From: Pelagibacteraceae bacterium AG-422-D23
Lineage (GTDB): Bacteria; Pseudomonadota; Alphaproteobacteria; Pelagibacterales; Pelagibacteraceae
Assembly: GCA_003213615.1 (NCBI GenBank)
Contig: QCMQ01000001.1
Coordinates: 337,807 to 401,806 of the forward strand
Direction: 5' to 3'
Length of the DNA stretch: 64,000 nucleotides
In this document: in pieces, positions 1 to 57,339 of the stretch
How positions within the stretch are numbered: the first letter of the stretch is position 1
How the letters are laid out: every line of letters starts with the position of its first letter
The notes under the pieces: generated by a model
Database searches by the model: none
Seen by the model: only the letters and a program-made list of their open reading frames with translations
What the model was told of the DNA's origin: nothing
Position numbers and translations under genes: made by a program

Positions 1-369
1 TCAGTTCCTGATAAATTGCTAGGAGTTGTGGCTATGTTATCTGCAATATTAATTTTAGCAGTCTTACCTTGGTTAGATACCTCAAAAATAAGATCAGCAG
101 TATTTAGACCACTGTATAAACAATTTTACTGGATATTAGTTGCAGATGTTTTGATACTTGGTTATGTGGGTGCGATGCCAGCTGAAGGACTTTACTTGTT
201 GATAGCAAGAGTTGCAACGGCATATTACTTTTTACATTTTTTAGTTATTCTTCCAGTTTTAGGGTTTAAAGAAAAAACTTTACCGGTGCCTCTAAGTATT
301 ACCGAACCTGTTCTAGGTGGTTCACCAAATTTAGCTGCCGCCAGAAATAAAGAAAGTAAAATAGAATAA
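1..369 (+). CDS. petB: cytochrome b of the bc1 complex (3' part only)
   Basis: C-terminal 122 codons of cytochrome b, the membrane subunit of complex III that oxidises ubiquinol and feeds cytochrome c1. The frame is open from base 1, so the gene begins outside the window; an internal TTG at 16 is not a real start. The first visible residues (SVPDKLLGV) match the PDKxxGV segment preceding the last helices of cytochrome b. Three hydrophobic helices follow, at roughly visible residues 8-25, 38-58 and 62-84. The stop is one base before the petC start, consistent with the usual petABC operon. The heme-binding histidines lie in the missing N-terminal part. Confidence 0.93.
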   Translation, partial: SVPDKLLGVVAMLSAILILAVLPWLDTSKIRSAVFRPLYKQFYWILVADVLILGYVGAMPAEGLYLLIARVATAYYFLHFLVILPVLGFKEKTLPVPLSITEPVLGGSPNLAAARNKESKIE

Positions 370-370
370 G

Positions 371-1150
371 GTGAAAAATTTTTATAAATTATTTTCTATA
401 ATAATCATGATTATTGTCTCAAACTCATATTCTTTTGCTGCTGAAAAAGTAGAATATTTAAAAACTGATTGGAGTTTTAAGGGTATATTTGGAAAATTTG
501 ATAGAGCTTCTCTTCAAAGAGGTTATCAAGTTTATACTGAGGTGTGTGCTTCATGTCATTCGATGAAGTATTTAAGCTATAGAAATTTAGCTGAGCCAGG
601 TGGCCCAGAATTCTCTGAAGCTCAAGCAAAAGCTATAGCAGCTTCATTTGAAGTAACTGATGGTCCAAATTCTGATGGTGAAATGTTTACAAGGCCAGGT
701 AAATTATCTGATAAATTTGTAATGCCATACGACAATGTAAAAGCAGCTCAAGCTGCAAATGGCGGTGCATACCCTCCTGACATGTCTGTTCTAGTTAAAG
801 CTAGAGGAGGTGGTGTTGACTATATCTATTCCTTATTGCAAGGATATGAAGAAGCTCCTAGCAACGTATCTTTAGATGATGGAGTTTATTATAACAAATA
901 TATGTATGGTAATAAAATTAGAATGGCTGCTCCATTATCAGATGGATTAGTAGAGTATGGTGACGGAACAAATGCAACAGTAGAACAGATGTCAAAAGAT
1001 GTAACGACCTTCTTAATGTGGTCTGCTGAACCTCATTTAGAATCTCGACATCAAATGGGCTTTAAAGCGATTGTCTATTTGATTATTCTGACAATATTAG
1101 TTTACTTTAGCATGAAAAAAATCTGGTCACGTGTTGAATCTGAAGTTTAA
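371..1150 (+). CDS. petC: cytochrome c1 of the bc1 complex
   Basis: Heme-binding subunit of complex III, 259 residues, which carries electrons from the Rieske protein to soluble cytochrome c. It begins with a signal sequence (residues 1-24, cleavage probably after SFAA), so the heme domain is periplasmic. The covalent heme motif CASCH is at residues 59-63 and the Met ligand is probably in the MAAPL segment near residue 185. A C-terminal transmembrane anchor lies at about 230-250. The GTG start one base after petB is supported by the signal peptide. The last 24 bases overlap the 3' end of ychF on the other strand. Confidence 0.95.
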   Translation: MKNFYKLFSIIIMIIVSNSYSFAAEKVEYLKTDWSFKGIFGKFDRASLQRGYQVYTEVCASCHSMKYLSYRNLAEPGGPEFSEAQAKAIAASFEVTDGPNSDGEMFTRPGKLSDKFVMPYDNVKAAQAANGGAYPPDMSVLVKARGGGVDYIYSLLQGYEEAPSNVSLDDGVYYNKYMYGNKIRMAAPLSDGLVEYGDGTNATVEQMSKDVTTFLMWSAEPHLESRHQMGFKAIVYLIILTILVYFSMKKIWSRVESEV

Positions 1151-35299: not shown

Positions 35300-36781
35300 A
35301 TGACAATTAACTTTAAAGCACCAGAAATTAAAGAGCTACAGCCACGATTGCTAGTACTAGGCGTAGGTGGAGCAGGCGGAAATGCAATTAATGAAATGAT
35401 AGAAAATAATCTTCAAGGAGTAGAATTTATTGCAGTTAATACGGATGCACAGGATTTGAAGCTTAGTAAAGCGAAAACAAGAATTCAAATTGGCTTAAAT
35501 TTAACAAAAGGTTTAGGGGCTGGTGCAAAACTTGATATTGGTCAGGCAGCTGCTGATGAATCTTTAAATGAAATTGTAAATACACTTCAAGGTGCAAACA
35601 TGGTTTTTATTGCAGCTGGTATGGGTGGTGGAACGGGCACTGGTGCTGCTCATGTCATCGCAAGAGCTGCTAAAGAATTAAATATCTTAACCGTAGGTGT
35701 TGTGACTCTTCCATTTTTATATGAAGGCCCCTCTAGAATGAGAAGAGCTCAACAAGGTTTGGAAGAGTTAAGAAAACATGTCGATACCATTATTGTTATT
35801 CCTAATCAAAATCTATTTAAAATAGCAAATGAACAGACAACCTTTGAAGAGTCATTTAATTTATCAAACAATGTATTGATGCATGGTGTTCAAAGTATCA
35901 CTGATTTGATGGTTAGACCTGGTTTAATTAACTTAGATTTTGCCGATGTTGAAACTGTTATGGCAGCAATGGGTAAAGCTATGATGGGAACAGGTGAGGC
36001 TGAAGGAGAAGGTAGAGCTCTTAAAGCAGCAGAGATGGCAATTAGTAATCCGTTAATAGATGACTATACTTTAAAAGGTGCAAAAGGATTACTAGTAAAT
36101 ATTACTGGCGGTAAAGATCTTAAACTTTTTGAGGTTGATGAGGCTGTAAATAAAGTTAGAGCTGAAGTTGATCCTGAAGCAGAATTAATTATTGGTGCAA
36201 TCACTGATACAGAACTTGATGGAAAAATGAGAGTTTCAATTGTTGCAACCTCATTAGATGGTCAGCAACCAGAGTCAAAATCTGTTGTAAATATGGTTCA
36301 TCGAATTCAAAATCGTAACCCTGGTTACTCTGATTTTTCAAATATGGAATCCTCTCAATCCTTTAATTTTTCAAATACAACAGCATCAAACCCAATTACA
36401 CATGGTGCCAATGCTTTAAAGCTTGAAAATGAGATTATCCAAGAACAACAAAATGAAAGCTCTCACAATCAAATGATGAATGAAGAAGTTGTTCAAAATA
36501 CTAGCATGGAAAGTGAAAGTATAGTTGAAGATAATTCAGTTAATGAAATGGAAAAATCTTTTGCACAAGAGGCTATGGAAACTAATCATGAAGAAACTCT
36601 GGAGAGCAATGTTGATGAGGAAGCCTCTAATGATCTCAAAGAGTTTGGAGTTGATTCTGATGCTCCAGATTTATTCAGTTCAGAAACTGAAATCACAAGT
36701 TCAGATGAACTTTTATCTTCTGACCAAGAGGAAGAAGATGATCTTGAGATACCAGCATTCTTAAGAAGACAAAAAAATTAA
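35300..36781 (+). CDS. ftsZ: cell division tubulin homologue FtsZ
   Basis: GTPase that assembles the division ring; 493 residues. GTP-binding GVGGAGGNA (21-29) and tubulin signature GMGGGTGTG (107-115), synergy T7 loop NLDFAD (211-216), globular core to about 320. A long acidic, Asn/Gln/Ser-rich linker of ~160 residues follows, then the conserved C-terminal peptide [10 protein letters not shown] that normally docks FtsA and other partners. A strong Shine-Dalgarno (GAGGGG at 35287-35292) precedes the ATG. It lies second in the cluster, far from its usual position after ftsA. Confidence 0.97.
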
Positions 36782-39802: not shown

Positions 39803-42646
39803 ATGCTTCTAGGAAACTATTTTCATAACATAAATAAAAACTATAGAAATTTTTCTTTTTCAGGAATTTCATTTGACACGAAGAGTATTAAAAAAAATAA
39901 TATTTTTTTTGCAATCAAAGGAAATAATATTGATGGTAATAAATTTATTCCTAAAGCAATTAAAAAAGGATCTAAAATTATTGTAACTGAAAAAAAAGTA
40001 AATTTATTCCAAAATGGAATTTTATATATTCATACAAAGAATATAAGAAAATTATTAGCTGAAACTGCTTTTAAAATTTATGATAAAAAACCAAAAAATT
40101 TAATCGCAGTTACAGGTACAAATGGAAAATCATCAGTTGCAGATTTTTATTATCAAATATTAAAATTAAATAATAAAAAAGGTGCTTCAATTGGCACATT
40201 AGGTGTTAAATCAAAAAGTATTAATTTGAATTTATCTAATACCACAATAGATCCAATAAAATTGGCTAAAATATTAAGCAAGTTAAAAAATCAAAAAATA
40301 GAAAATGTAATTATGGAAGCCTCAAGCCATGGTTTAAAGCAAAATAGATTAGATGGTTTAAAGTTTAATTCAGGTATATTTACTAATCTATCCCAGGATC
40401 ATCTTGATTATCATAAAAATTTAAAAAACTATTTAAATGCAAAACTTTATTTATTTGAAAACCTAATCTTAAAAAGAGGAAATGTAATTACAGATCAATT
40501 AATACCTGAGTTTAAAAACATAAAAAAAATTGCAATTAATAAGAAATTAAAATTGCATACACTAAATGGTAAGAAAAATAATCTAGAGCTTTTGTCTCAT
40601 AATTTTAAAGGAGAGGGTCAATTCCTTAGAATTAAATTAAATAGCTTAATAAGGGATATAAATTTAAATTTAGTTGGAAAAATACAATTAAAAAATGTTT
40701 TGATGGCAATAATTGCAGCAAAATATAGCGGCGTTAGTTTAAATAAAATTTTGAGTACAATTCCAAAATTGAAACCAGTTGAAGGAAGATTTGAAAAAAT
40801 AGGTAAAATTAAAAATCAATCAACAGTAATTCTAGATTATGCTCATACGCCTGATGCTTTAAAAACGTGTCTTTTAAATCTTAGAGAACAATTTCCTAAT
40901 AAAGCACTCATAGTGCTATTTGGTTGTGGCGGAAATAGAGATCAAAATAAAAGATCAAAAATGGGGAAAATAGCTAGTGATTTTGCAGATAATATCATTC
41001 TTACAAATGATAACCCTAGATTTGAAAATCCTCAAAAAATAAGAAGAGATATAAAAAAAGGTATTAAAAAAAAAATAATTACTGAAATTGCTAATAGAGA
41101 AATAGCAATAAAACAAGCTATTCATAATTTGAATTCAGGTGATATTTTGTTGGTCGCTGGAAAGGGTCATGAGAAAACACAAGATATTGGAAATAAGAAA
41201 ATCATCTTTTCAGATAGAAAAATAATTTTAAATGCTATTAAGAGTAAAAATAATAATTTATCAAATAATTTAAAATTAAATGTGATTAAAGAGGCAGTTA
41301 AAATAAAAAAATTATCTCCCTTCACATCTTTAAAAACAGCAAGAATTAATTCTCAAGAAGTTACTAAAAACGATATTTTTTTTGCTATTAGAGGAAAAAA
41401 AAATGACGGCAATAAATATGTTGCACAATCATTTAAGAGAAAAGCATCGTTAGCTGTAGTAAACAAAATCCAAAATAAATTAAATAAAAGTCGTCAGATT
41501 AAAGTAAAAAATACTTTAAAATTCCTAACAGATATTTCAAAAACTTTTAGGAAAAGCATTGATACAAATATTGTAGCTATTACAGGTAGTTGTGGCAAAA
41601 CTACACTTAAAGAATTGTTAGGTAATGTATTAAGTAAAATTTCAAAAGTAAGTATTTCTCCAAAATCTTATAACAATAAATTTGGAGTACCTTTGAGTCT
41701 TTTTAATTTAAAACAAAATGATGAATTTGGAATTTTAGAAGTTGGAATGGATAAAAAAGGTGAAATTGATTATTTATCAAAAATAATTGAACCAGATGTT
41801 GGAGTAATAACAAATATAAATTATGCGCATGCTAAAAATTTTAAAAATATTAAACAAATCGCTTTGGCAAAATCTGAAATTATTAACAATATAAAACCTA
41901 ATGGATATGTTGTATTGAATGCAGATGATAGTTTTTTTCAATTACATAAAAAAATTGCTAAAGAAAAGAAAATTAAAATTGTTTCTTTTGGTATTAAAAG
42001 TCAGAAAGCAGACATTAAATTAATTAACACAAAGGCTTTTGGAAAAAAATTTAGAATTAATATTAGATTAAATAATAAAAAAAAGCATTTAATATTATCA
42101 AACGATTTTCAAAACAATATATACAATACACTTGCTGCTTTAGCAGTTATTAGTATTTATAAAAATATATTTAAACTAAATGAAAATATTTTTCTCAATT
42201 TCAAAATTCCTGGGGGAAGAGGGGATCATTCTATAGTAAAATTTAAAGATAAAAAAATTAATTTAATTGATCAAAGTTATAATTCGAATCCCCTATCATT
42301 AAAATCAGCAATAAATAATTTTGACAAAATAAACTCCAAAAAATCAAATAAATATTTATTAATTGGTGACATGTTAGAGCTGGGTAATCATTCAAAAAAA
42401 CTTCATAAATCTATTGCTCCAATAATTAATCAAACCAAGATAGATAAGGTATTTGTTAAAGGTAAAATGGCTTCTCTAATATTTAAAAATATCTCAAAGG
42501 CAAAAAAAGGTAGGATTTTATTAAACAAATCTCAAATTATTAAATTGATTAGAAAAGATTTAAATAATAATGATTATTTAATGATTAAGGCCTCACTTGC
42601 GACAGGTTTCAACGACATAGTAAAAGATCTGAAAGGATTGCATTAA
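39803..42646 (+). CDS. murE-murF: MurE-MurF fusion ligase
   Basis: 947 residues joining two successive ligases of the UDP-MurNAc pathway. MurE half (about 1-480): P-loop TGTNGKS (104-110), HLDYHKN, and DNPR (403-406), the motif for meso-diaminopimelate. MurF half (about 492-947): P-loop TGSCGKTT (594-601), FGVPLSLFN, GDMLELG. Both halves open with a related binding motif (IFFAIKG at 34-40, IFFAIRG at 525-531). The linker is only ~10 Asn/Ser residues (483-492). The product is UDP-MurNAc-pentapeptide for MraY. Confidence 0.95.
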   Translation: MLLGNYFHNINKNYRNFSFSGISFDTKSIKKNNIFFAIKGNNIDGNKFIPKAIKKGSKIIVTEKKVNLFQNGILYIHTKNIRKLLAETAFKIYDKKPKNLIAVTGTNGKSSVADFYYQILKLNNKKGASIGTLGVKSKSINLNLSNTTIDPIKLAKILSKLKNQKIENVIMEASSHGLKQNRLDGLKFNSGIFTNLSQDHLDYHKNLKNYLNAKLYLFENLILKRGNVITDQLIPEFKNIKKIAINKKLKLHTLNGKKNNLELLSHNFKGEGQFLRIKLNSLIRDINLNLVGKIQLKNVLMAIIAAKYSGVSLNKILSTIPKLKPVEGRFEKIGKIKNQSTVILDYAHTPDALKTCLLNLREQFPNKALIVLFGCGGNRDQNKRSKMGKIASDFADNIILTNDNPRFENPQKIRRDIKKGIKKKIITEIANREIAIKQAIHNLNSGDILLVAGKGHEKTQDIGNKKIIFSDRKIILNAIKSKNNNLSNNLKLNVIKEAVKIKKLSPFTSLKTARINSQEVTKNDIFFAIRGKKNDGNKYVAQSFKRKASLAVVNKIQNKLNKSRQIKVKNTLKFLTDISKTFRKSIDTNIVAITGSCGKTTLKELLGNVLSKISKVSISPKSYNNKFGVPLSLFNLKQNDEFGILEVGMDKKGEIDYLSKIIEPDVGVITNINYAHAKNFKNIKQIALAKSEIINNIKPNGYVVLNADDSFFQLHKKIAKEKKIKIVSFGIKSQKADIKLINTKAFGKKFRINIRLNNKKKHLILSNDFQNNIYNTLAALAVISIYKNIFKLNENIFLNFKIPGGRGDHSIVKFKDKKINLIDQSYNSNPLSLKSAINNFDKINSKKSNKYLLIGDMLELGNHSKKLHKSIAPIINQTKIDKVFVKGKMASLIFKNISKAKKGRILLNKSQIIKLIRKDLNNNDYLMIKASLATGFNDIVKDLKGLH

Positions 42647-49496: not shown

Positions 49497-50411
49497 TTGA
49501 AAAAAAAAATATTAATAATATCAGGTGGGATATCGAAAGAGAGAATAATTAGTCTTGATACAGGGCAACAGGTTGCTAATGAGCTTAAAAAAAATGGTTA
49601 TAGAGTTAAAATCACTGAACCAGATAATAATTTAGAAAAAAACATAAAATTTTTTAAACCAAACATAATTTTTAATGCGTTGCATGGTCAGTTTGGTGAG
49701 GATGGTTATATTCAGACTATTCTAGAAAGATTTAAAATTCCTTATACTCATTCAGGTGCAATAGCATCATCAATTGCAATGGACAAGGAAATTTCAAAAA
49801 AACTTTTTATTAAAAATAAAATTAAAACCCCAAAATTTTTTACTTATTCATTTGATTTAACAAAATCTAATTTAATTAACAAAATAAACAAGGAACTAAA
49901 ATTTCCAGTTGTGATTAAACCTTTGAATGAAGGCTCAAGTGTAAATGTTTATATATGTGATAAGAGAAGTTTAAATAAAATTCTTTACAAACTTAAACCT
50001 TATAAAAAAGTAATGTTTGAGCAATTTATTGGAGGAAGAGAAATACAAGTTGCGATTATGGGCGATAAAAAATTAGGAGCAATTGAGCTAAAACCAAAAA
50101 GAAAATTTTATGATTATCAGGCAAAATATGATTCAAAAGCTAAAACCCAACATATTATACCTGTAGACCTAGCTAAATCTAAATTTAATCTACTAATGGA
50201 TATTGCATACAAAGCTCATAAAATTATAGGCTGTAGAGGAGTCACGAGATCAGATTTTAAGTTTTTTAATGGTGATTTTTATTTGTTAGAACTTAATACT
50301 CAACCTGGAATGACCAAATTGTCACTTGTACCAGAGATAGCATTATATAGAGGTTTAACCTTTATAAAATTAATTGAATGGATGTTGAAAGATGCATCAA
50401 AGAAAAAGTAA
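49497..50411 (+). CDS. ddl: D-alanine--D-alanine ligase
   Basis: ATP-grasp enzyme making D-Ala-D-Ala for MurF; 304 residues. The TTG start at 49497 is forced: the conserved first strand (KILIISGGISKER) begins three codons later and no ATG or GTG is available before it. Other landmarks: NALHGQFGEDG, KPLNEGSSVNV, and ELNTQPGMTKLSLVPE with the metal-binding Glu/Asn. It overlaps ftsQ by 20 bp. Confidence 0.93.
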   Translation: MKKKILIISGGISKERIISLDTGQQVANELKKNGYRVKITEPDNNLEKNIKFFKPNIIFNALHGQFGEDGYIQTILERFKIPYTHSGAIASSIAMDKEISKKLFIKNKIKTPKFFTYSFDLTKSNLINKINKELKFPVVIKPLNEGSSVNVYICDKRSLNKILYKLKPYKKVMFEQFIGGREIQVAIMGDKKLGAIELKPKRKFYDYQAKYDSKAKTQHIIPVDLAKSKFNLLMDIAYKAHKIIGCRGVTRSDFKFFNGDFYLLELNTQPGMTKLSLVPEIALYRGLTFIKLIEWMLKDASKKK

Positions 50412-51063
50412 AAAAGTTTTAATTTATTTTCTTTTACTAATAGTTGTTTCTTCAATTGGTAATTATTCAATCAATAATTTGAATTTTCATAAAATACAAA
50501 ACATTAATATCTCTGGTTTAGATGAAAAAAATAATCAAATTTTGCTGAATAAAATAAAAAATTTAAATTTAAAAAATATATTTTTTCTTAATGAATATGA
50601 AATTATTAAAATACTTAATTCTAATAATTTAATTGAAAGTTATGAAGTTTTTAAAAAATATCCATTTGAATTAGATGTTGATATAAAGAAAACAACATTC
50701 TTAGCCAAAATAAATATAGAAGGAAAAGAATATTTAATTGGTTCTAATAGAAAATTTTCAAACAGTAATTATTCAAATAAAAATCTTCCTTATATTTTTG
50801 GAAATCCTAAAATTAGTGAATTTCTTGATTTTAAAAATACTTTAGATCAATCCTCAATAGCTTACGATGAAATTAAAAATTTCTATTTTTTCCAATCAAA
50901 GCGTTGGGATTTAGAGATGAAAAATGGTTTATTAATTAAATTACCAGCTGGTTCTATTCAAAATATATTAAGCGATGTATCTTTTTTTTTAAATCAAAAT
51001 AATTCAAATCAGTTGAAAATAATTGATGTGAGAGTAAAAAATCAAATAATTGTAAATGACTAA
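50392..51063 (+). CDS. ftsQ: division protein FtsQ
   Basis: 223 residues: short basic cytoplasmic end, one TM helix (about 7-25), a POTRA domain (about 30-100, IQNINISGLDEKNNQILLNKI ...), then the beta domain ending LKIIDVRVKNQIIVND. Bitopic scaffold linking FtsA/FtsK to FtsL. Sequence similarity is low as typical for FtsQ; identity is fixed by topology and the ddl-ftsQ-ftsA order. It overlaps the following ftsA-like gene by 8 bp. Confidence 0.88.
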   Translation: MHQRKSKKVLIYFLLLIVVSSIGNYSINNLNFHKIQNINISGLDEKNNQILLNKIKNLNLKNIFFLNEYEIIKILNSNNLIESYEVFKKYPFELDVDIKKTTFLAKINIEGKEYLIGSNRKFSNSNYSNKNLPYIFGNPKISEFLDFKNTLDQSSIAYDEIKNFYFFQSKRWDLEMKNGLLIKLPAGSIQNILSDVSFFLNQNNSNQLKIIDVRVKNQIIVND

Positions 51064-51760
51064 AGAGTTAGAATTTGAAACATATCTAATTATATCACCT
51101 TATGAATTTGAAATTTATTTATTAGATAAAAAAAACTTAAATAATTTATATGAAAATAAACTAACAATTAAAAATCCAAATAACTTTATTGATTTTAATC
51201 TTTTAACTGAATTTTTAGATAAAAATATTTTTAAGATAGAAAAAATGATCGGTATGTTTATAAAAAATATCGTATTAATTATTGATAATAATAAAGTTGT
51301 CAATTTAAATTTTAGTATAAAAAAAAAAAATTACCAAAACAATATTACTAAAAACTTTTTAGAAAGTATGCTTATAGACGCTAAAGACCTATTTGCAGAA
51401 AACTATCATAATCAAAAAATTATGCATTTGATTATAAAAAAATATATAATTGATGGAAATCAATATTTACTATTTAACGAGAAATTAAATGGAGATAAGT
51501 TTTGTATAGAACTGCAATTTATTTCAATTTCAAACAAATTTTTATTTGAAATTGACAAAGTATTAGAGAAGTATCAAATAAAAATAACTCAATATTTTGA
51601 GGGTAATTACATCAGAAATCTTTTTGAAGATAAGGACATACACTTTGCAGAAATGATATATAAGGTTCAAAATGGTTTTATCGAAAATGAAGTAAAATTA
51701 ATTCCTAAAAGCCCTAAAAATTTAGGTTTTTTTGAAAAATTTTTTCAACTATTTAGTTAA
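51056..51760 (+). CDS. reduced FtsA-like protein (SHS2 domain plus terminal amphipathic helix)
   Basis: 234 residues in the exact position of ftsA, which is normally ~420. Residues 6-38 resemble the first FtsA beta strands; 67-190 resemble the FtsA-specific 1C/SHS2 domain (KIMHLIIKKYIIDGN at 121-135 matches the family pattern ILHxIPxxYxLDG; 160-187 matches the following helix and strand). The IDIGGGTTD-type phosphate loop and the 2A/2B actin lobes are absent. The end, GFFEKFFQLFS (224-234), resembles the membrane-targeting helix. No frameshift remnant fits in the 64 bp before lpxC. Identification is by position plus pattern. Confidence 0.62.
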   Translation: MTKELEFETYLIISPYEFEIYLLDKKNLNNLYENKLTIKNPNNFIDFNLLTEFLDKNIFKIEKMIGMFIKNIVLIIDNNKVVNLNFSIKKKNYQNNITKNFLESMLIDAKDLFAENYHNQKIMHLIIKKYIIDGNQYLLFNEKLNGDKFCIELQFISISNKFLFEIDKVLEKYQIKITQYFEGNYIRNLFEDKDIHFAEMIYKVQNGFIENEVKLIPKSPKNLGFFEKFFQLFS

Positions 51761-51824
51761 TATTGTTTTTTCTGGTAACATTTATTGTTTTCTAATTATG
51801 TGAAAATCAATTTAAAAACTTTCT

Positions 51825-52745
51825 GTGTCTTATTTAACTCAGAAAACAGTAAAAAAAAATGTTACTTTCAGTGGGATTGCGCTTCACAATGGTTTTAATG
51901 TCAATGTATGTATTAAACCAGCTGAACCTAATTTTGGCATAGTATTTAAAAGAGTAGATTTGAAAACTAACAACTTAGTTTATCCAAATTTTATGAATGT
52001 CTGTAATACTTCACTTAACACAACCATACAAAATCAATTTGGAGTTAAAGTTTCAACCATAGAACATTTAATGGGTGCATTATTTGGTTTGGGTGTGGAT
52101 AACGCATTGATTGAAATTGATAATGAGGAAGTGCCAATTTTAGATGGTTCAGCAAAAGTATTTATTGAAAAAATTCTTTCGTCTGGAATAGATGTAAGTA
52201 ATCAACCAATTAAGATTATAAAAATAAAAAAAGAGATTATGTATTCTGATGGAGAAAGATTTATATCAATTAAGCCGTCAACCTTAAGTTTGGATATTGA
52301 TTTTCGATTAAAATATAAAAATCCTATAATTGGGAATCAAAGTAATAAATTTAAAGTTTACGAAGATGATTTAACTGATGTTTATAATTCTAGAACTTTT
52401 TGTCTGTTTGAAGATGTTGAGATAATAAAAAAAATGGGCTTGGCAAAAGGTGGCAGTCTAGAAAATGCTGTAGTAGTTAAAGATAAAGAAGTTTTAAATC
52501 CTGAGGGATTAAGAAATAATAAAGAATTTGTAAATCATAAAATACTTGATTGTATTGGTGATTTGTATACATCGGGATACAGAATTGTAGCTAGCATTGT
52601 ATGTTCGCAAGGTGGCCATTATTTAACAAATCAACTACTACGAAAAGTATTTCAAAATAAAGAAAATTTTTCAATTATAGAAATTAAAGAAAAAAACTTA
52701 CCTCACACACTAATAAATAGAAATTTACTTAGATCTATAGCATAA
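51825..52745 (+). CDS. lpxC: UDP-3-O-acyl-GlcNAc deacetylase
   Basis: Committed, zinc-dependent step of lipid A synthesis; 306 residues. Zinc and catalytic motifs are visible: STIEHLMGALFGLGVDN (His), PILDGSA, and HKILDCIGDL (His and Asp), plus the late GGHYLTN His. GTG start, preceded by a 64 bp gap that may hold its own promoter. Its presence means the cell makes lipid A. Its place after the ftsA position matches many proteobacteria, but ftsZ is missing between them. Confidence 0.95.
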   Translation: MSYLTQKTVKKNVTFSGIALHNGFNVNVCIKPAEPNFGIVFKRVDLKTNNLVYPNFMNVCNTSLNTTIQNQFGVKVSTIEHLMGALFGLGVDNALIEIDNEEVPILDGSAKVFIEKILSSGIDVSNQPIKIIKIKKEIMYSDGERFISIKPSTLSLDIDFRLKYKNPIIGNQSNKFKVYEDDLTDVYNSRTFCLFEDVEIIKKMGLAKGGSLENAVVVKDKEVLNPEGLRNNKEFVNHKILDCIGDLYTSGYRIVASIVCSQGGHYLTNQLLRKVFQNKENFSIIEIKEKNLPHTLINRNLLRSIA

Positions 52746-52793
52746 ATATAAAGATAACTTTTAAATACCTTTTTTAAAAAGTATAAATCTAAG

Positions 52794-53633
52794 ATGAAAA
52801 TAAAAATAATATTATTTTTTTTGATATCAATTTTTTTGACTGTTTCTTGTTCAAAAGATGAAAATAAAATATCTACAATTACTGAAAAAAGTCAGGAGCT
52901 CCAAGTATTGGAGGCTTATCAAGAAGGCATGAAGTCTCTTGAGGGAGGTGATGTTTTATACGCAGCTAAAAAATTTAATGAAGCTGAAATTTTATTCCCA
53001 CAATCTGAGTGGGCACCTAAATCAGCTTTAATGGCTGCATATTCTTATTATGTTCAAGATTATTATGGAGATACAATTGCTGAATTAAATAGATTTCTCA
53101 AAATATATCCTTCAAATAAAAATATTGATTATGCATTTTATCTTTTAGCAATTTCATACTATGAACAGATAGTTGATGAAAAAAAAGACCTTGAGTCAAT
53201 TCTTAAATCCAAAAAATATTTTGAAATCATAATTAAAGAATTCCCCAATACAGATTATGCATTGGATGCAGAATTTAAAATAAATTTAATAAATGATATA
53301 CTTGCATCTAAGGAAATGTATGTAGGGAGATATTATTTTGATAAAAAAAAATGGATACCTGCTATAAATAGATTTAAAACAGTTATTAACGAATATGAAA
53401 CAACAGTTTATACGGAAGAAGCTCTTCATAGATTAGTAGAAGTTCATTATACTATCGGCCTAATTCAAGAGGCTAAAAAATATGCAAATTTATTAGGCTA
53501 TAATTATCAATCCTCTAAATGGTATGAAAACAGTTACACTATATTTAACAAAAAATATGAAATACAAAAAAAAGAAAAAATTAATAAAAAAGATAATATT
53601 CTTATAAAAAAATTTAAATCTCTTCTTGATTGA
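52794..53633 (+). CDS. bamD: outer membrane assembly lipoprotein BamD
   Basis: Essential part of the BAM complex with BamA; 279 residues. Signal peptide with lipobox LTVSC (Cys19 lipidated), then TPR-type helix pairs (for example AYQEGMKSLEGGDVLYAAKKFNEAE, SALMAAYSYYVQDYYGDTIAELNRFL) up to about residue 240, and a Lys-rich tail. In related genomes recN usually separates bamD and ligA; here ligA follows after one base. Confidence 0.93.
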   Translation: MKIKIILFFLISIFLTVSCSKDENKISTITEKSQELQVLEAYQEGMKSLEGGDVLYAAKKFNEAEILFPQSEWAPKSALMAAYSYYVQDYYGDTIAELNRFLKIYPSNKNIDYAFYLLAISYYEQIVDEKKDLESILKSKKYFEIIIKEFPNTDYALDAEFKINLINDILASKEMYVGRYYFDKKKWIPAINRFKTVINEYETTVYTEEALHRLVEVHYTIGLIQEAKKYANLLGYNYQSSKWYENSYTIFNKKYEIQKKEKINKKDNILIKKFKSLLD

Positions 53634-53634
53634 G

Positions 53635-55665
53635 ATGAAAAAAAAAGAAATTCAAAAAAAATATAATAATAAAATCAAATTAATTAATAAATATAATGAT
53701 AATTATTATAATAAAAGTAATCCAATTGTTGATGATAAAACTTACGATAATTTAAAAAAAGAAATTTTACAACTTGAAATTGATTATAATTTCTTAAAAT
53801 CTGAAAATTCACCTTCGAAAGTTGTTGGGCATAAACCGTCTAAAAATTTTAAAAAGTCATCGCATAAAGTACCTATGCTGTCATTAGGAAATGCTTTTTC
53901 CGAGGAAGATTTAGACAATTTTGAAAAAAAAATTAAAAATTTTTTATCGTTAAATGAAAAAAAAGTAATTTACTATAATGCAGAACCTAAAATTGACGGG
54001 ATATCTGCTTCATTAACTTATAAAAAGGGAAAGTTTTATAAGGGACTTTCTAGAGGAGATGGAAAAGAAGGAGAGGACATAACAGAAAATCTTGCAACTA
54101 TAAATGATATTCCAAAAGTTATTTCATCAAAAGATTTTCCCGATGAAATAGATATTAGAGGAGAGGTGTTTATTCAAAATAGTGACTTTAAAAATTTAAA
54201 TGACAAATTTGCAAATCCCAGAAATGCAGCTTCTGGATCTTTAAGACAAAAAAATCCAAATGATACACAAAAAATCCCATTAAAATTTATTGCATATACA
54301 TTTGGATACGAAAAGGGATTGTCAGTAAAAAATCAGTCTGATTTTATTAATAAATTAAGTGAATGGGGATTTAAAATAAATCCATTAAATAAATTAATTT
54401 CTGGCGTTAAAAATTTAATTGAAAATTATAATGATATTGAAAAAAAAAGAGTAAAACTAGATTTTGATATAGATGGTATTGTTTATAAAGTTAATGATTT
54501 TGCAATGCAAAAGAGATTGGGTAATGTAGCTAATGCTCCAAGATGGGCAATAGCTCATAAGTTTTCATCTAATAAAGCAATTTCTAAAATACTAGATATT
54601 GAAATCCAGGTTGGTAGAACTGGGGCATTAACTCCAGTAGCAAAAATTAAACCAATAAATATCGGCGGGGTAGTTGTCTCGAATGCAACACTGCATAATG
54701 AAGACGAGATAAATAGAAAGGATATAAGAATTGGTGATACAGCTGTTATAGAGCGTGCGGGCGATGTAATACCCCATATACTTTCTATTGATATAAAAAA
54801 AAGATCAAAAGATAGTAAAAAATTTGTTTTTCCAAAAAAATGTCCTTCGTGCGGATCTGAAACTATTAAGGAATTTAATATTTTAACAAAAAAAACTGAT
54901 GCTGTTAGAAGGTGTTCTAGCGAAGGTTATTATTGTGAAAAAATTTCAATTGAAAAATTAAAACACTTTGTCTCAAAAGAAGCATTTAATATAGATGGTT
55001 TAGGAAAAAAAATAATTGAAGATTTTTGGAAATTAAAATTTATAAAATTTCCTCAAGATATATTCCAATTAGAGTATGATAAAATTGAAAAACTTGAGGG
55101 ATGGGGAAAATTATCTGTTGAAAATTTAAAGTATTCTATAAATCAAAAAAAAAATATATCTTTAGAAAAATTAATATATTCTTTAGGTATTAGACATATA
55201 GGTTTAGAAAACGCAAAATTATTGTCTAAACATTTTGTATCATTTTTAAAATTTAAAAACCTATTTAAAACAAATAAGTATGGGGATTTATTAAATATCG
55301 ATGGAATTGGTGAGACACAAGTAAACTCGATAAAAAGATTTTTTGGAAATGAAATAAATTTAAAAGTTTTAGATGAATTAGAAAAAGTTTTAATTGTAAA
55401 AAATGCTTCACCTATAAAAATTGATGGTCTTCTTAATAATAAATCTTTCTTAGTAACTGGAAAATTAAACGGTATTAGCAGAGCAGAAGTAAAATCGCTA
55501 ATTGAAGAAAATTCAGGTACAACAGTAAGTACTGTTTCAAAAAAATTAAATTATTTAATAATAGGTGAAAAACCAACTAAGAAAAAAGTAGATAATGCTA
55601 GACAGTTAAAAATAAAAATTATAGATCAAGTTGAATTTTTGAAGATGCTAAATAAAATTAGCTAG
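53635..55665 (+). CDS. ligA: NAD-dependent DNA ligase
   Basis: Seals nicks in replication and repair using NAD+; 676 residues. I start at the ATG at 53635, one base after the bamD stop. Domain Ia and adenylation domain with the KIDG nucleophile motif (AEPKIDGISAS), SRGDGKEGEDITEN, OB domain, a Cys4 zinc finger (CPSCGS ... RCSSEGYYC, spacing slightly longer than usual), helix-hairpin-helix repeats and a C-terminal BRCT domain (NNKSFLVTGKLNG...). Its last 18 bp overlap the convergent peptidase gene. Confidence 0.96.
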   Translation: MKKKEIQKKYNNKIKLINKYNDNYYNKSNPIVDDKTYDNLKKEILQLEIDYNFLKSENSPSKVVGHKPSKNFKKSSHKVPMLSLGNAFSEEDLDNFEKKIKNFLSLNEKKVIYYNAEPKIDGISASLTYKKGKFYKGLSRGDGKEGEDITENLATINDIPKVISSKDFPDEIDIRGEVFIQNSDFKNLNDKFANPRNAASGSLRQKNPNDTQKIPLKFIAYTFGYEKGLSVKNQSDFINKLSEWGFKINPLNKLISGVKNLIENYNDIEKKRVKLDFDIDGIVYKVNDFAMQKRLGNVANAPRWAIAHKFSSNKAISKILDIEIQVGRTGALTPVAKIKPINIGGVVVSNATLHNEDEINRKDIRIGDTAVIERAGDVIPHILSIDIKKRSKDSKKFVFPKKCPSCGSETIKEFNILTKKTDAVRRCSSEGYYCEKISIEKLKHFVSKEAFNIDGLGKKIIEDFWKLKFIKFPQDIFQLEYDKIEKLEGWGKLSVENLKYSINQKKNISLEKLIYSLGIRHIGLENAKLLSKHFVSFLKFKNLFKTNKYGDLLNIDGIGETQVNSIKRFFGNEINLKVLDELEKVLIVKNASPIKIDGLLNNKSFLVTGKLNGISRAEVKSLIEENSGTTVSTVSKKLNYLIIGEKPTKKKVDNARQLKIKIIDQVEFLKMLNKIS

Positions 55666-57339
55666 CCATTTCCTCTCGTTTAAACTCAAATAGTTTGATA
55701 TTTTTGAATAAACTTCCAAATGATATTTAAATAGATAATTTTTTTCATTTAGGGTTAATAAGTTAAAATTTATTAAATCTTTTTCGATAGGTGCCAAAGT
55801 TAAATTTTTAAAAAACAATTTTTGATCTTTTTTATCCACATAAACTAAATTTTCTATACGAATTCCAAAATGGTTCTCCTTATAATAGCCAGGCTCATTA
55901 CTCAAAATCATTCCTGGTTCTATTTTAACTTTGTTTTGTTTAGTTATTGATTGCGGCCCTTCATGAACATTTAGAAAAAATCCTACCCCGTGGCCAGTAC
56001 CATGTGCATAATCTAAATTGCTCTCTCTTAAAAATTTTCTTGCTCTTTTATCAATTTTTTTTCCAGTGTTGTCCTTATTAATATTAGTTGTAGCAACAGC
56101 AATATGTCCTTTTAAAACTTTAGTAAAAATGTTTTTTATGTTTTGGCCTTGATTGGTAAAGCAGATTGTTCTTGTTACATCTGTTGTGCCATATTTATAT
56201 TGTCCACCTGAATCACAAAGAAAAAGATCCTTTTTATTTATTTTTCTACAATTTTCTTTTTGTGCACGATAATGAACAATTGCACCATTTTTACCTGAAC
56301 CTGCAATTGTATCAAAACTAGGATAAAGAAAATTTTTATTCATTTTTCTAAATCTTTCTAATTTTTTAGCTGCATCCACTTCACTAATTTTATTTTTATT
56401 AATTTCTTTAATCCAATAAATAAATTTTGTTAAGGCTACTCCATCTAAGATATGTGCGTTAATCATATTATTAATTTCTACTTTATTTTTTATTGCTTTT
56501 AAAAAATAAGAAGGGTCTTCTCTACTAACAATTTTAAATTTTGAATTAATTAGATTTTCATAAAATATTGAACATGATTTATCATCAATAATAAATTTTT
56601 TTCCTTCAAGTTTAAATAATTTATTTGGCAACTCATTTATATTCAAAAACTGATTTAATTTAATTGTTTTGTTTTTTATTAATTTTTCACATTTTTTCAT
56701 TTCACTGATTAATAATATTTTTTTTGTTTTGCTTATTATTAATCTTGAATTGGGAACTGGGCTATTTGGACAATCTCCTCCTCTAATATTTAATATCCAT
56801 GCAACATTTTCAGGAGCACTTATAAAAATATAATCTGATTTATTTTTTTTTAGATATTTTGAAATTTTGTTAATTTTAGAACTGGCACTTTCACCGACTA
56901 TATTTTTTTTTAACGAAAAAAAAGGGATTTTAAAGTCGTCTCTTTGTTTTTTAATCTCATCAACTAAATTTTTATTTATGCATTTGATTTTATTGTTTTT
57001 TAAAAAAAATTTTTTAATTTGAGAATTTGTAAATAATTTTGGATCAATGCCTAAGGTTAAATTTTTGAATAAATTACAGTTTATTAATTTTTCAAACCCA
57101 AGAATTTTAAAATTTTTTCCACTTTCAGATTGACTTTGAATCGTATATCTTCCATCAGTAAAGAGATAGTTTTTCTTTTTTAATATTATAGCTAATCCTG
57201 CTGAGCCACTAAAATTTGAGATAATTTGTAATCTATTAATTTTTGAATATTCAGTAAAATATTCATCATTTTTTGGAATTACATATCCGTCAATTTTATA
57301 TTTCTCAAATTTTTTTCTTAATATATGAATTTTTTTCAT
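55648..57339 (-). CDS. M24 metallopeptidase, Xaa-Pro aminopeptidase type
   Basis: 563 residues, the large type with two creatinase-like N-terminal domains and a C-terminal pita-bread catalytic domain. Metal ligands: Asp in LCDSGGQY and DVTRTI, His in GHGVGFFLNVHEGPQ, Glu in LSNEPGYY and in GIRIENLVYV. Cleaves N-terminal residues before proline and may help amino-acid recycling. Its start is directly next to the helicase stop (57339 is shared), so the pair is coupled on one message. Confidence 0.92.
   Translation of the reverse strand: MKKIHILRKKFEKYKIDGYVIPKNDEYFTEYSKINRLQIISNFSGSAGLAIILKKKNYLFTDGRYTIQSQSESGKNFKILGFEKLINCNLFKNLTLGIDPKLFTNSQIKKFFLKNNKIKCINKNLVDEIKKQRDDFKIPFFSLKKNIVGESASSKINKISKYLKKNKSDYIFISAPENVAWILNIRGGDCPNSPVPNSRLIISKTKKILLISEMKKCEKLIKNKTIKLNQFLNINELPNKLFKLEGKKFIIDDKSCSIFYENLINSKFKIVSREDPSYFLKAIKNKVEINNMINAHILDGVALTKFIYWIKEINKNKISEVDAAKKLERFRKMNKNFLYPSFDTIAGSGKNGAIVHYRAQKENCRKINKKDLFLCDSGGQYKYGTTDVTRTICFTNQGQNIKNIFTKVLKGHIAVATTNINKDNTGKKIDKRARKFLRESNLDYAHGTGHGVGFFLNVHEGPQSITKQNKVKIEPGMILSNEPGYYKENHFGIRIENLVYVDKKDQKLFFKNLTLAPIEKDLINFNLLTLNEKNYLFKYHLEVYSKISNYLSLNERKWLANFI

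Follow-up and report, generated by a model that had tools for sequence, protein, structure and literature searches.

A short FtsA-derived protein lacking the second actin half at the ftsA locus of SAR11 bacteria

The ftsA locus and the predicted fold of its product

The window analysed here, a whole stretch of 64,000 nucleotides from Pelagibacteraceae bacterium AG-422-D23, carries a division gene cluster. In this cluster ftsQ (50392..51063, +) was recognised by POTRA_1 with an E-value of 7.3e-5, slightly above the cut-off, and by FtsQ_DivIB_C with an E-value of 0.002, slightly below it. The 3′ end of ftsQ and the start of the following gene share 8 bases, and this gene (51056..51760, +), which begins with ATG and consists of 234 codons and a stop, is directly followed by lpxC (51825..52745, +; LpxC, E 6.8e-92). 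This arrangement bears out the statement of an earlier note, made from the letters of the window, that an open reading frame of only 234 residues lies at the place of ftsA between ftsQ and lpxC. The order ftsQ-ftsA, which is the canonical one, is present at the short-form locus, ftsA is followed by lpxC in the loci examined, and ftsZ is not the next gene in this group. The earlier note had put ftsZ and ftsA into one operon. They do belong to the same cluster, but ftsZ (35300..36781, +; 493 aa, assigned by open reading frame and Pfam) stands 14 kb upstream of ftsA at the head of the cluster, not after ftsA, between two genes which we take from their sequences to be MraZ-like and MraW-like. Elsewhere in the window, a frame of 947 aa (39803-42646) is an apparent murE-murF fusion, as judged by its sequence and position.

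How is the 234-residue protein related to FtsA? The NCBIfam model TIGR01174 (ftsA) matches its residues 51-180 with E 9.5e-8 and 31.5 bits; because this is far under the naming cut-off of 175.85, the short FtsA is probably left unnamed by automatic annotation. Pfam SHS2_FTSA matches residues 87-137 below its cut-off (E 0.016). When a profile built solely from 12 short forms was searched against 177,635 distinct PDB sequences, FtsA of E. coli, Xenorhabdus and Vibrio came first (E 6.5e-4, 1e-3 and 8.7e-3, respectively), the match reaching position 189. The PilM and GspL families are not among the Pfam and NCBIfam matches of the short FtsA, and the locus is a division cluster. Together with the structural search described below, whose top matches are FtsA, these results uphold the FtsA-like character of the protein and, with the orthologues and the model, its assignment as an FtsA of domain 1 only. 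A second ftsA was not found in the source assembly, which is 94.7% complete. PF02491 had no match there, and the sole match of PF14450, considered as a candidate, turned out to be a frame that is presumably MreB-like, followed by a presumably MreC-like one. A complete ftsA elsewhere in the genome, which would have spoken against the earlier proposal, was thus not encountered in this assembly with either model.

The AlphaFold2 model of the short FtsA, for which 69 distinct short forms were aligned, has a pLDDT of 85.8 and a pTM of 0.80, with values under 50 at residues 1-3, 219-224 and 226-234. The best 19 Foldseek matches (E 1.8e-13 to 5.6e-9) consist of 16 chains titled FtsA and three chains of 3wt0, which is titled 'Cell Division Protein' and which we take to be FtsA as well; PilM, GspL/EpsL and others come after FtsA in the list. 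Against the eleven best FtsA entries, VIA-align gave Z 12.0-14.4 over 195-204 residues. The next-best folds, the cytoplasmic domain of GspL/EpsL (1yf5, 1w97, 4pht) and PilM, gave Z 8.9-11.1. GspL is a small FtsA/PilM-like membrane adaptor that is held in the membrane by a transmembrane helix; both GspL and PilM belong to a different machine and to different genes from the short FtsA, and PilM is of full length. In the alignment with E. coli FtsA, residues 4..207 of the model cover FtsA 6..388, with 202 residues aligned and about 180 FtsA residues skipped, and the structural alignments to FtsA stop at FtsA residues 371-392.

Subdomains were assigned by our own reading of the secondary-structure elements of the model. 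The N-terminal part of subdomain 1A (residues 6-76; 51071..51283, +) is predicted to comprise strands 7-13, 17-24 and 29-37, helix 47-65 and strand 71-76, and contains at residues 12-17 (IISPYE; 51089..51106, +) the site of the lost phosphate-1 motif, located through the D.G counts given below. Then comes subdomain 1C, or SHS2 (residues 82-159; 51299..51532, +), whose strand 82-91, helix 99-116 and strands 120-132 and 148-159 follow the strand-helix-strand-strand order and which includes the sub-threshold SHS2_FTSA match. The second part of 1A (residues 160-189; 51533..51622, +), with helix 160-171, strand 176-182 and helix 183-189 in the model, is also reached by the FtsA profile match in PDB. 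A junction loop (residues 190-196; 51623..51643, +), where the alignment gap places 2A and 2B of the long forms, leads to the C-terminal helix of subdomain 1A (residues 197-205; 51644..51670, +), which appears in the model and in the structural alignments to FtsA. The remainder is a linker (residues 206-223; 51671..51724, +), mostly of low model confidence and with conserved positions 207, 209 and E212, and the aromatic amphipathic tail GFFEKFFQLFS (51725..51757, +), which is present as first noticed. Conservation and hydrophobic moment (top 7.7% of 3056 11-mers from eight window proteins) suggest that this tail is a membrane-targeting helix, and the model has a helix at 225-232 with low pLDDT. 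The predicted fold is therefore not one unrelated to SHS2, but subdomain 1A of FtsA with a 1C insert in SHS2 order. The 1C domain, first delimited around residues 67-190, is narrower in the model, and more of FtsA is kept than the N-terminal strands and 1C that had been proposed, namely subdomain 1A including its C-terminal helix.

Absence of domain 2 and of the nucleotide motifs

Within the genus, long orthologues can be aligned to the short FtsA on either side of one main gap (columns 213-390), which is filled mainly in long forms; where it was measured, in 19 long forms, the 2A and 2B segment amounts to 141-172 residues. The phosphate-1 motif D.G is found in 31/32 long forms of the genus and in 0/50 short forms, and the P2 and adenosine motifs fall within the part that is missing. 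Could domain 2 be encoded elsewhere? A domain-2 profile had no convincing match in any of ten short-form genomes, one of which (G078) has a broken short copy. Weak matches of 31-32 residues (E 0.008-0.03) occurred in three of the ten, each in a 358-aa frame, as against E 1.6e-41 to 6.8e-53 in four of four long-form genomes used as positive controls. Both the second actin half (2A/2B) and the glycine-rich phosphate loop are thus absent, as had been read from the window.

D.G is also lacking in 10/20 long forms of other genera. Eight full-length FtsA proteins, from G001, G081, G138, G052, G027, G004, G008 and G233 (loci L104, L105, L108, L109, L119, L120, L111 and L216), are in addition without both glycines at the GxG adenosine-type columns, a result that depends on the alignment; seven of them come from other genera and one is labelled as the same genus. 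The nucleotide site therefore seems to be eroded in some full-length FtsA of the family too, and these proteins are possibly nucleotide-free with all lobes kept. The locus labelled as the same genus, L216 (G233), has a division cluster that the tree places with another genus (g4), and is mislabelled, chimeric or recombined.

Compared with canonical FtsA (E. coli 7q6d, T. maritima 1e4g/4a2a and V. maritimus 7q6i), the short form shares 1A, 1C, the C-terminal helix of 1A, the linker, the amphipathic tail and the order ftsQ-ftsA, and its E62, K63 and H124 are common to all 17 rows of a mixed FtsA alignment. In contrast, 2A, 2B, the phosphate-1 motif, the known site for the FtsZ peptide and half of the nucleotide cleft are missing, and 234 residues stand against 396-419 in the solved FtsA chains. 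Long FtsA proteins of the same genus (for example 369 aa in G026, 378 aa in G170 and 388 aa in G341) are orthologues at the syntenic position and carry a tail of the same type, but they retain 2A/2B and nearly always D.G. Since homology to FtsA holds while 2A/2B and the nucleotide motifs were looked for and are absent, the protein should be termed FtsA-derived rather than a standard FtsA. Sequence, predicted fold, synteny and orthologues all speak strongly for an FtsA-derived protein that lacks the nucleotide site and has a membrane-type tail. Among the matches listed from the open-licence PMC literature, no title or beginning of an abstract had a half FtsA or SAR11 FtsA as its subject, and the short FtsA is a variant for which we found no earlier description.

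Short and long forms in the genus

In total 107 loci around lpxC, which are not a random sample, were examined. Five were dropped, two (L072 and L234) for a frameshift or stops and three (L117, L118 and L246) because the gene is cut or missing near a contig end. The lengths of the others are bimodal, with 50 short loci at 220-244 residues and 52 long ones at 368-419, and none of the 107 falls within 245-367. Among the family genomes, 84/147 match the 234-aa protein at E <= 0.01. With a mixed profile, 138/201 genomes of the genus matched and 63 did not; the 138 comprise 70 short frames (207-246), 47 long ones (319-402, one with an internal stop) and 21 that are fragments, broken or very weak, and as this profile, at 234 positions, is no longer than a short form, the number of long forms in this survey may be too low. 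When 17 genomes were rechecked by lpxC, five were without lpxC as well, so that the absence of FtsA there is explained by missing sequence. In a survey of the class with PF02491, 258/289 genomes matched and 31 did not, and among the matches listed the frames are at least 340 residues long, apart from a 228-residue frame close to the start of a contig (G577); as PF02491 misses G000 and G003, undetected short FtsA elsewhere in the class is possible.

The records of short forms include Pelagibacteraceae isolates, Ca. Pelagibacter ubique SCGC AAA795-O19 and a Lake Baikal MAG. A single-protein search of the genome contigs with the 234-aa FtsA gave no relatives, and an alignment-based search gave 267; the best 80 of these were retained. 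One set (A3) was gathered by peptide patterns over the tail and one helix, which biases conservation at these places, and all conservation values quoted here come from the short-form set found without patterns (n=50). All 69 short proteins of A3 differ from one another, and so do the 50 of the other set. Broken short copies also exist: one is frameshifted at a T7A8 run (L016, about 1660-1680) in the single-contig genome G078, and one has several stops (G282, L234). They come from sequencing error, slippage or real loss.

How did the short form arise within the genus? In a tree of ten neighbour genes, which holds 99 of the 107 loci (eight had too few genes; the two broken copies were counted as short), short forms occupy six places, with seven long forms in one clade, and the long L209 as well, nested among them. 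Two of the six placements are on weaker branches (L229, 0.86; L238 beside L209, 0.77), and well-supported branches force at least four changes among 45 chosen rows. A single clade of short forms is rejected by the ten-gene tree (p-AU 5e-74; 45 of the 99 loci), also without clade A (p 3e-59). One clean origin was accordingly discarded on this tree, although a single clade is not rejected by FtsA domain 1 alone (p 0.61, support 57/96). FtsA domain 1 in turn rejects the neighbour-gene tree (p 1.5e-5 and 1.8e-4 in two tests), but this rejection is not specific because ftsQ, lpxC and ddl reject it too. The grouping of the main short clade with the nearest long clade is rejected by FtsA (p 0.009), while ftsQ (0.72), ddl (0.59) and lpxC (0.08) do not reject it; two other groupings tested were not rejected by FtsA (0.096 and 0.248). 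In the short group of L071, L237 and L238 the C-terminal part is nearer to the long L209 (0.67) than to the window's group (0.35), and L238 stands at 0.54 to L209 versus 0.52 to its nearest short form.

In three close pairs, chosen for strongly differing ftsA, divergence is greater in the block ftsQ-ftsA-lpxC-bamD-ligA-pepP (0.42-0.80) than in its flanks (ddl and upstream 0.80-0.99, uvrD 0.88-0.92, fumC 0.86-0.95). The edge of the block is not clean, since asmA, located between it and uvrD/fumC, is low again (0.66) in the single pair that gave a match for it. Four other pairs (L065/L067, L083/L096, L226/L227 and L068/L069) have no such drop at ftsQ (0.89-0.99). The diverged block corresponds to 50392-57339 of the window (ftsQ to pepP) and is also seen in L242/L243 and L251-L256. 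This pattern of identities points to block exchange between lineages, in some lineages. From the conflict of trees and the block exchange, the half-actin deletion may have happened several times, and one deletion spread horizontally or by recombination is also possible.

Contact with FtsZ and function of the short form

The FtsZ-peptide site of known FtsA is lobe 2B, and the structure 4a2a is titled FtsA:FtsZ(336-351). FtsZ of the window keeps its C-terminal docking peptide (13 residues; 36740..36778, +), as had been pointed out, and a ten-residue peptide is intact in 38/38 short-form genomes, the other 12 of 50 having no ftsZ in the fetched stretch. EIPAFLR[RK]Q is found in 38/38 long-form genomes (in the other 14 of 52, ftsZ is not in the fetched stretch). 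What else could hold FtsZ? The family models of ZipA and SepF each matched 0/9 genomes. FtsX_ECD matched 0/12 genomes, and this absence is weak because the Caulobacter control was silent too. ZapA was found in 12/12 genomes. SPOR-domain proteins, considered as candidates for FtsN, were matched in 4/9 genomes (L247, L248, L249 and L250), but all four loci are flanked by presumably MltB-like and DacC-like genes and resemble RlpA; FtsN was not recognised by the SPOR search in the nine genomes. FtsN is reported to contact the 1C domain of FtsA in E. coli (PMC9426451), a published interactome places the contacts of gonococcal FtsA with FtsQ, FtsZ and FtsN in 2A/2B and that with FtsW in 2A (PMC5727935), and residues close to the nucleotide site of E. 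coli FtsA are described as critical (PMC10213515).

The short gene, the only FtsA found in the genome, would have arisen from a full-length FtsA by loss of 2A and 2B, with retention of 1A and its 1C (SHS2) insert, the closing C-terminal helix of 1A, the linker and the amphipathic membrane-type helix. The tail would seat the protein on the inner membrane, ATP would be neither bound nor hydrolysed, and actin-type filaments would be impossible. The protein might then serve the divisome as a permanently active adaptor that meets its partners through 1A/1C and the conserved positions of the linker. Such a tail-anchored adaptor without a nucleotide switch is favoured because the site for the FtsZ peptide is on 2B and because 1C is kept but FtsN was not recognised. 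As the known site for the FtsZ peptide is lost with 2B, the half-FtsA would need a new contact to be the anchor of FtsZ; FtsZ would be tethered by such a new site or by a tether missed by the family models searched. We consider it fairly probable that the half-FtsA is a membrane-bound divisome adaptor without ATP binding or classical FtsA filaments, FtsZ being held in one of these two ways. The earlier note had suggested, as putative functions, a membrane anchor of the Z-ring or an adaptor facing FtsQ/FtsN.

It might be, on the other hand, that the short FtsA no longer contacts FtsZ and that an unrecognised protein anchors the Z-ring, so that the half-FtsA would be retained solely as an adaptor at the membrane, with FtsQ, FtsW or other late proteins as its partners. 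The FtsZ-binding lobe is indeed missing in all 50 aligned short forms, yet the FtsZ peptide is unchanged where ftsZ was fetched, and a peptide that is unchanged though its known lobe has gone must still have a partner. A candidate for the separate tether was, however, not found among ZipA, SepF and FtsX_ECD, and we judge this arrangement rather unlikely. A split FtsA, with domain 2 encoded by another gene and joining in trans, would also account for the conserved peptide, but the few short matches of the domain-2 profile, set against the strong ones in all control genomes, make it very improbable.

Is the short gene just a functionless remnant decaying on its way to loss? ftsA evolves fast, with 48-66% identity against 87-96% for ftsZ in the pairs window/L062, L243/L242 and L061/L079, and two short copies (G078 and G282) are broken. 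But fast evolution is shared by the long forms (47-93% identity, dN/dS 0.119-0.401 in seven pairs), the 50 complete short frames keep to their narrow length range with an empty gap above it, and the short ftsA is under purifying selection, with dN/dS 0.154-0.292 in 13/13 pairs. E62, E212 and F230 are found in 50/50 short forms and K63 in 49/50, and in the linker position 207 is G in 44/50 and position 209 is N in 44/50 (Ile in the window). The tail has the top conservation among the segments measured (0.76 versus 0.45 overall in the 50 short forms), and linker 206-218 reaches 0.54 in short forms versus 0.37 in 31 long forms. Decay is therefore improbable. An artefact of assembly or sequencing, for instance a stretch lost inside the gene during assembly, is hardly conceivable, because genomes consisting of a single contig (G003, G035, G063 and G017) and many separately named isolates carry short forms, with proteins all distinct from one another.

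The ATP site and filaments of FtsA are thought to control the onset of constriction. If the short form works alone, as the reading of a membrane-bound adaptor would have it, models requiring FtsA polymers or the 2B contact do not hold generally, and a Z-ring can be tethered with a smaller minimal set. Short and long relatives within one genus and at one locus make up a natural domain-deletion experiment. In SAR11 bacteria with the short form, division probably relies on an FtsA whose mode of action departs from that of the textbook protein. That much of the SAR11 genus relies for division on a half-actin FtsA that neither carries nucleotide nor forms filaments, for which ATP-driven polymerisation and the contact of 2B with FtsZ are dispensable and the tether of FtsZ is of an undescribed kind, is a more tentative proposal, to which we give a little less than an even chance. 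SAR11 bacteria are among the most abundant in the sea, and division with a half-FtsA may therefore be common.
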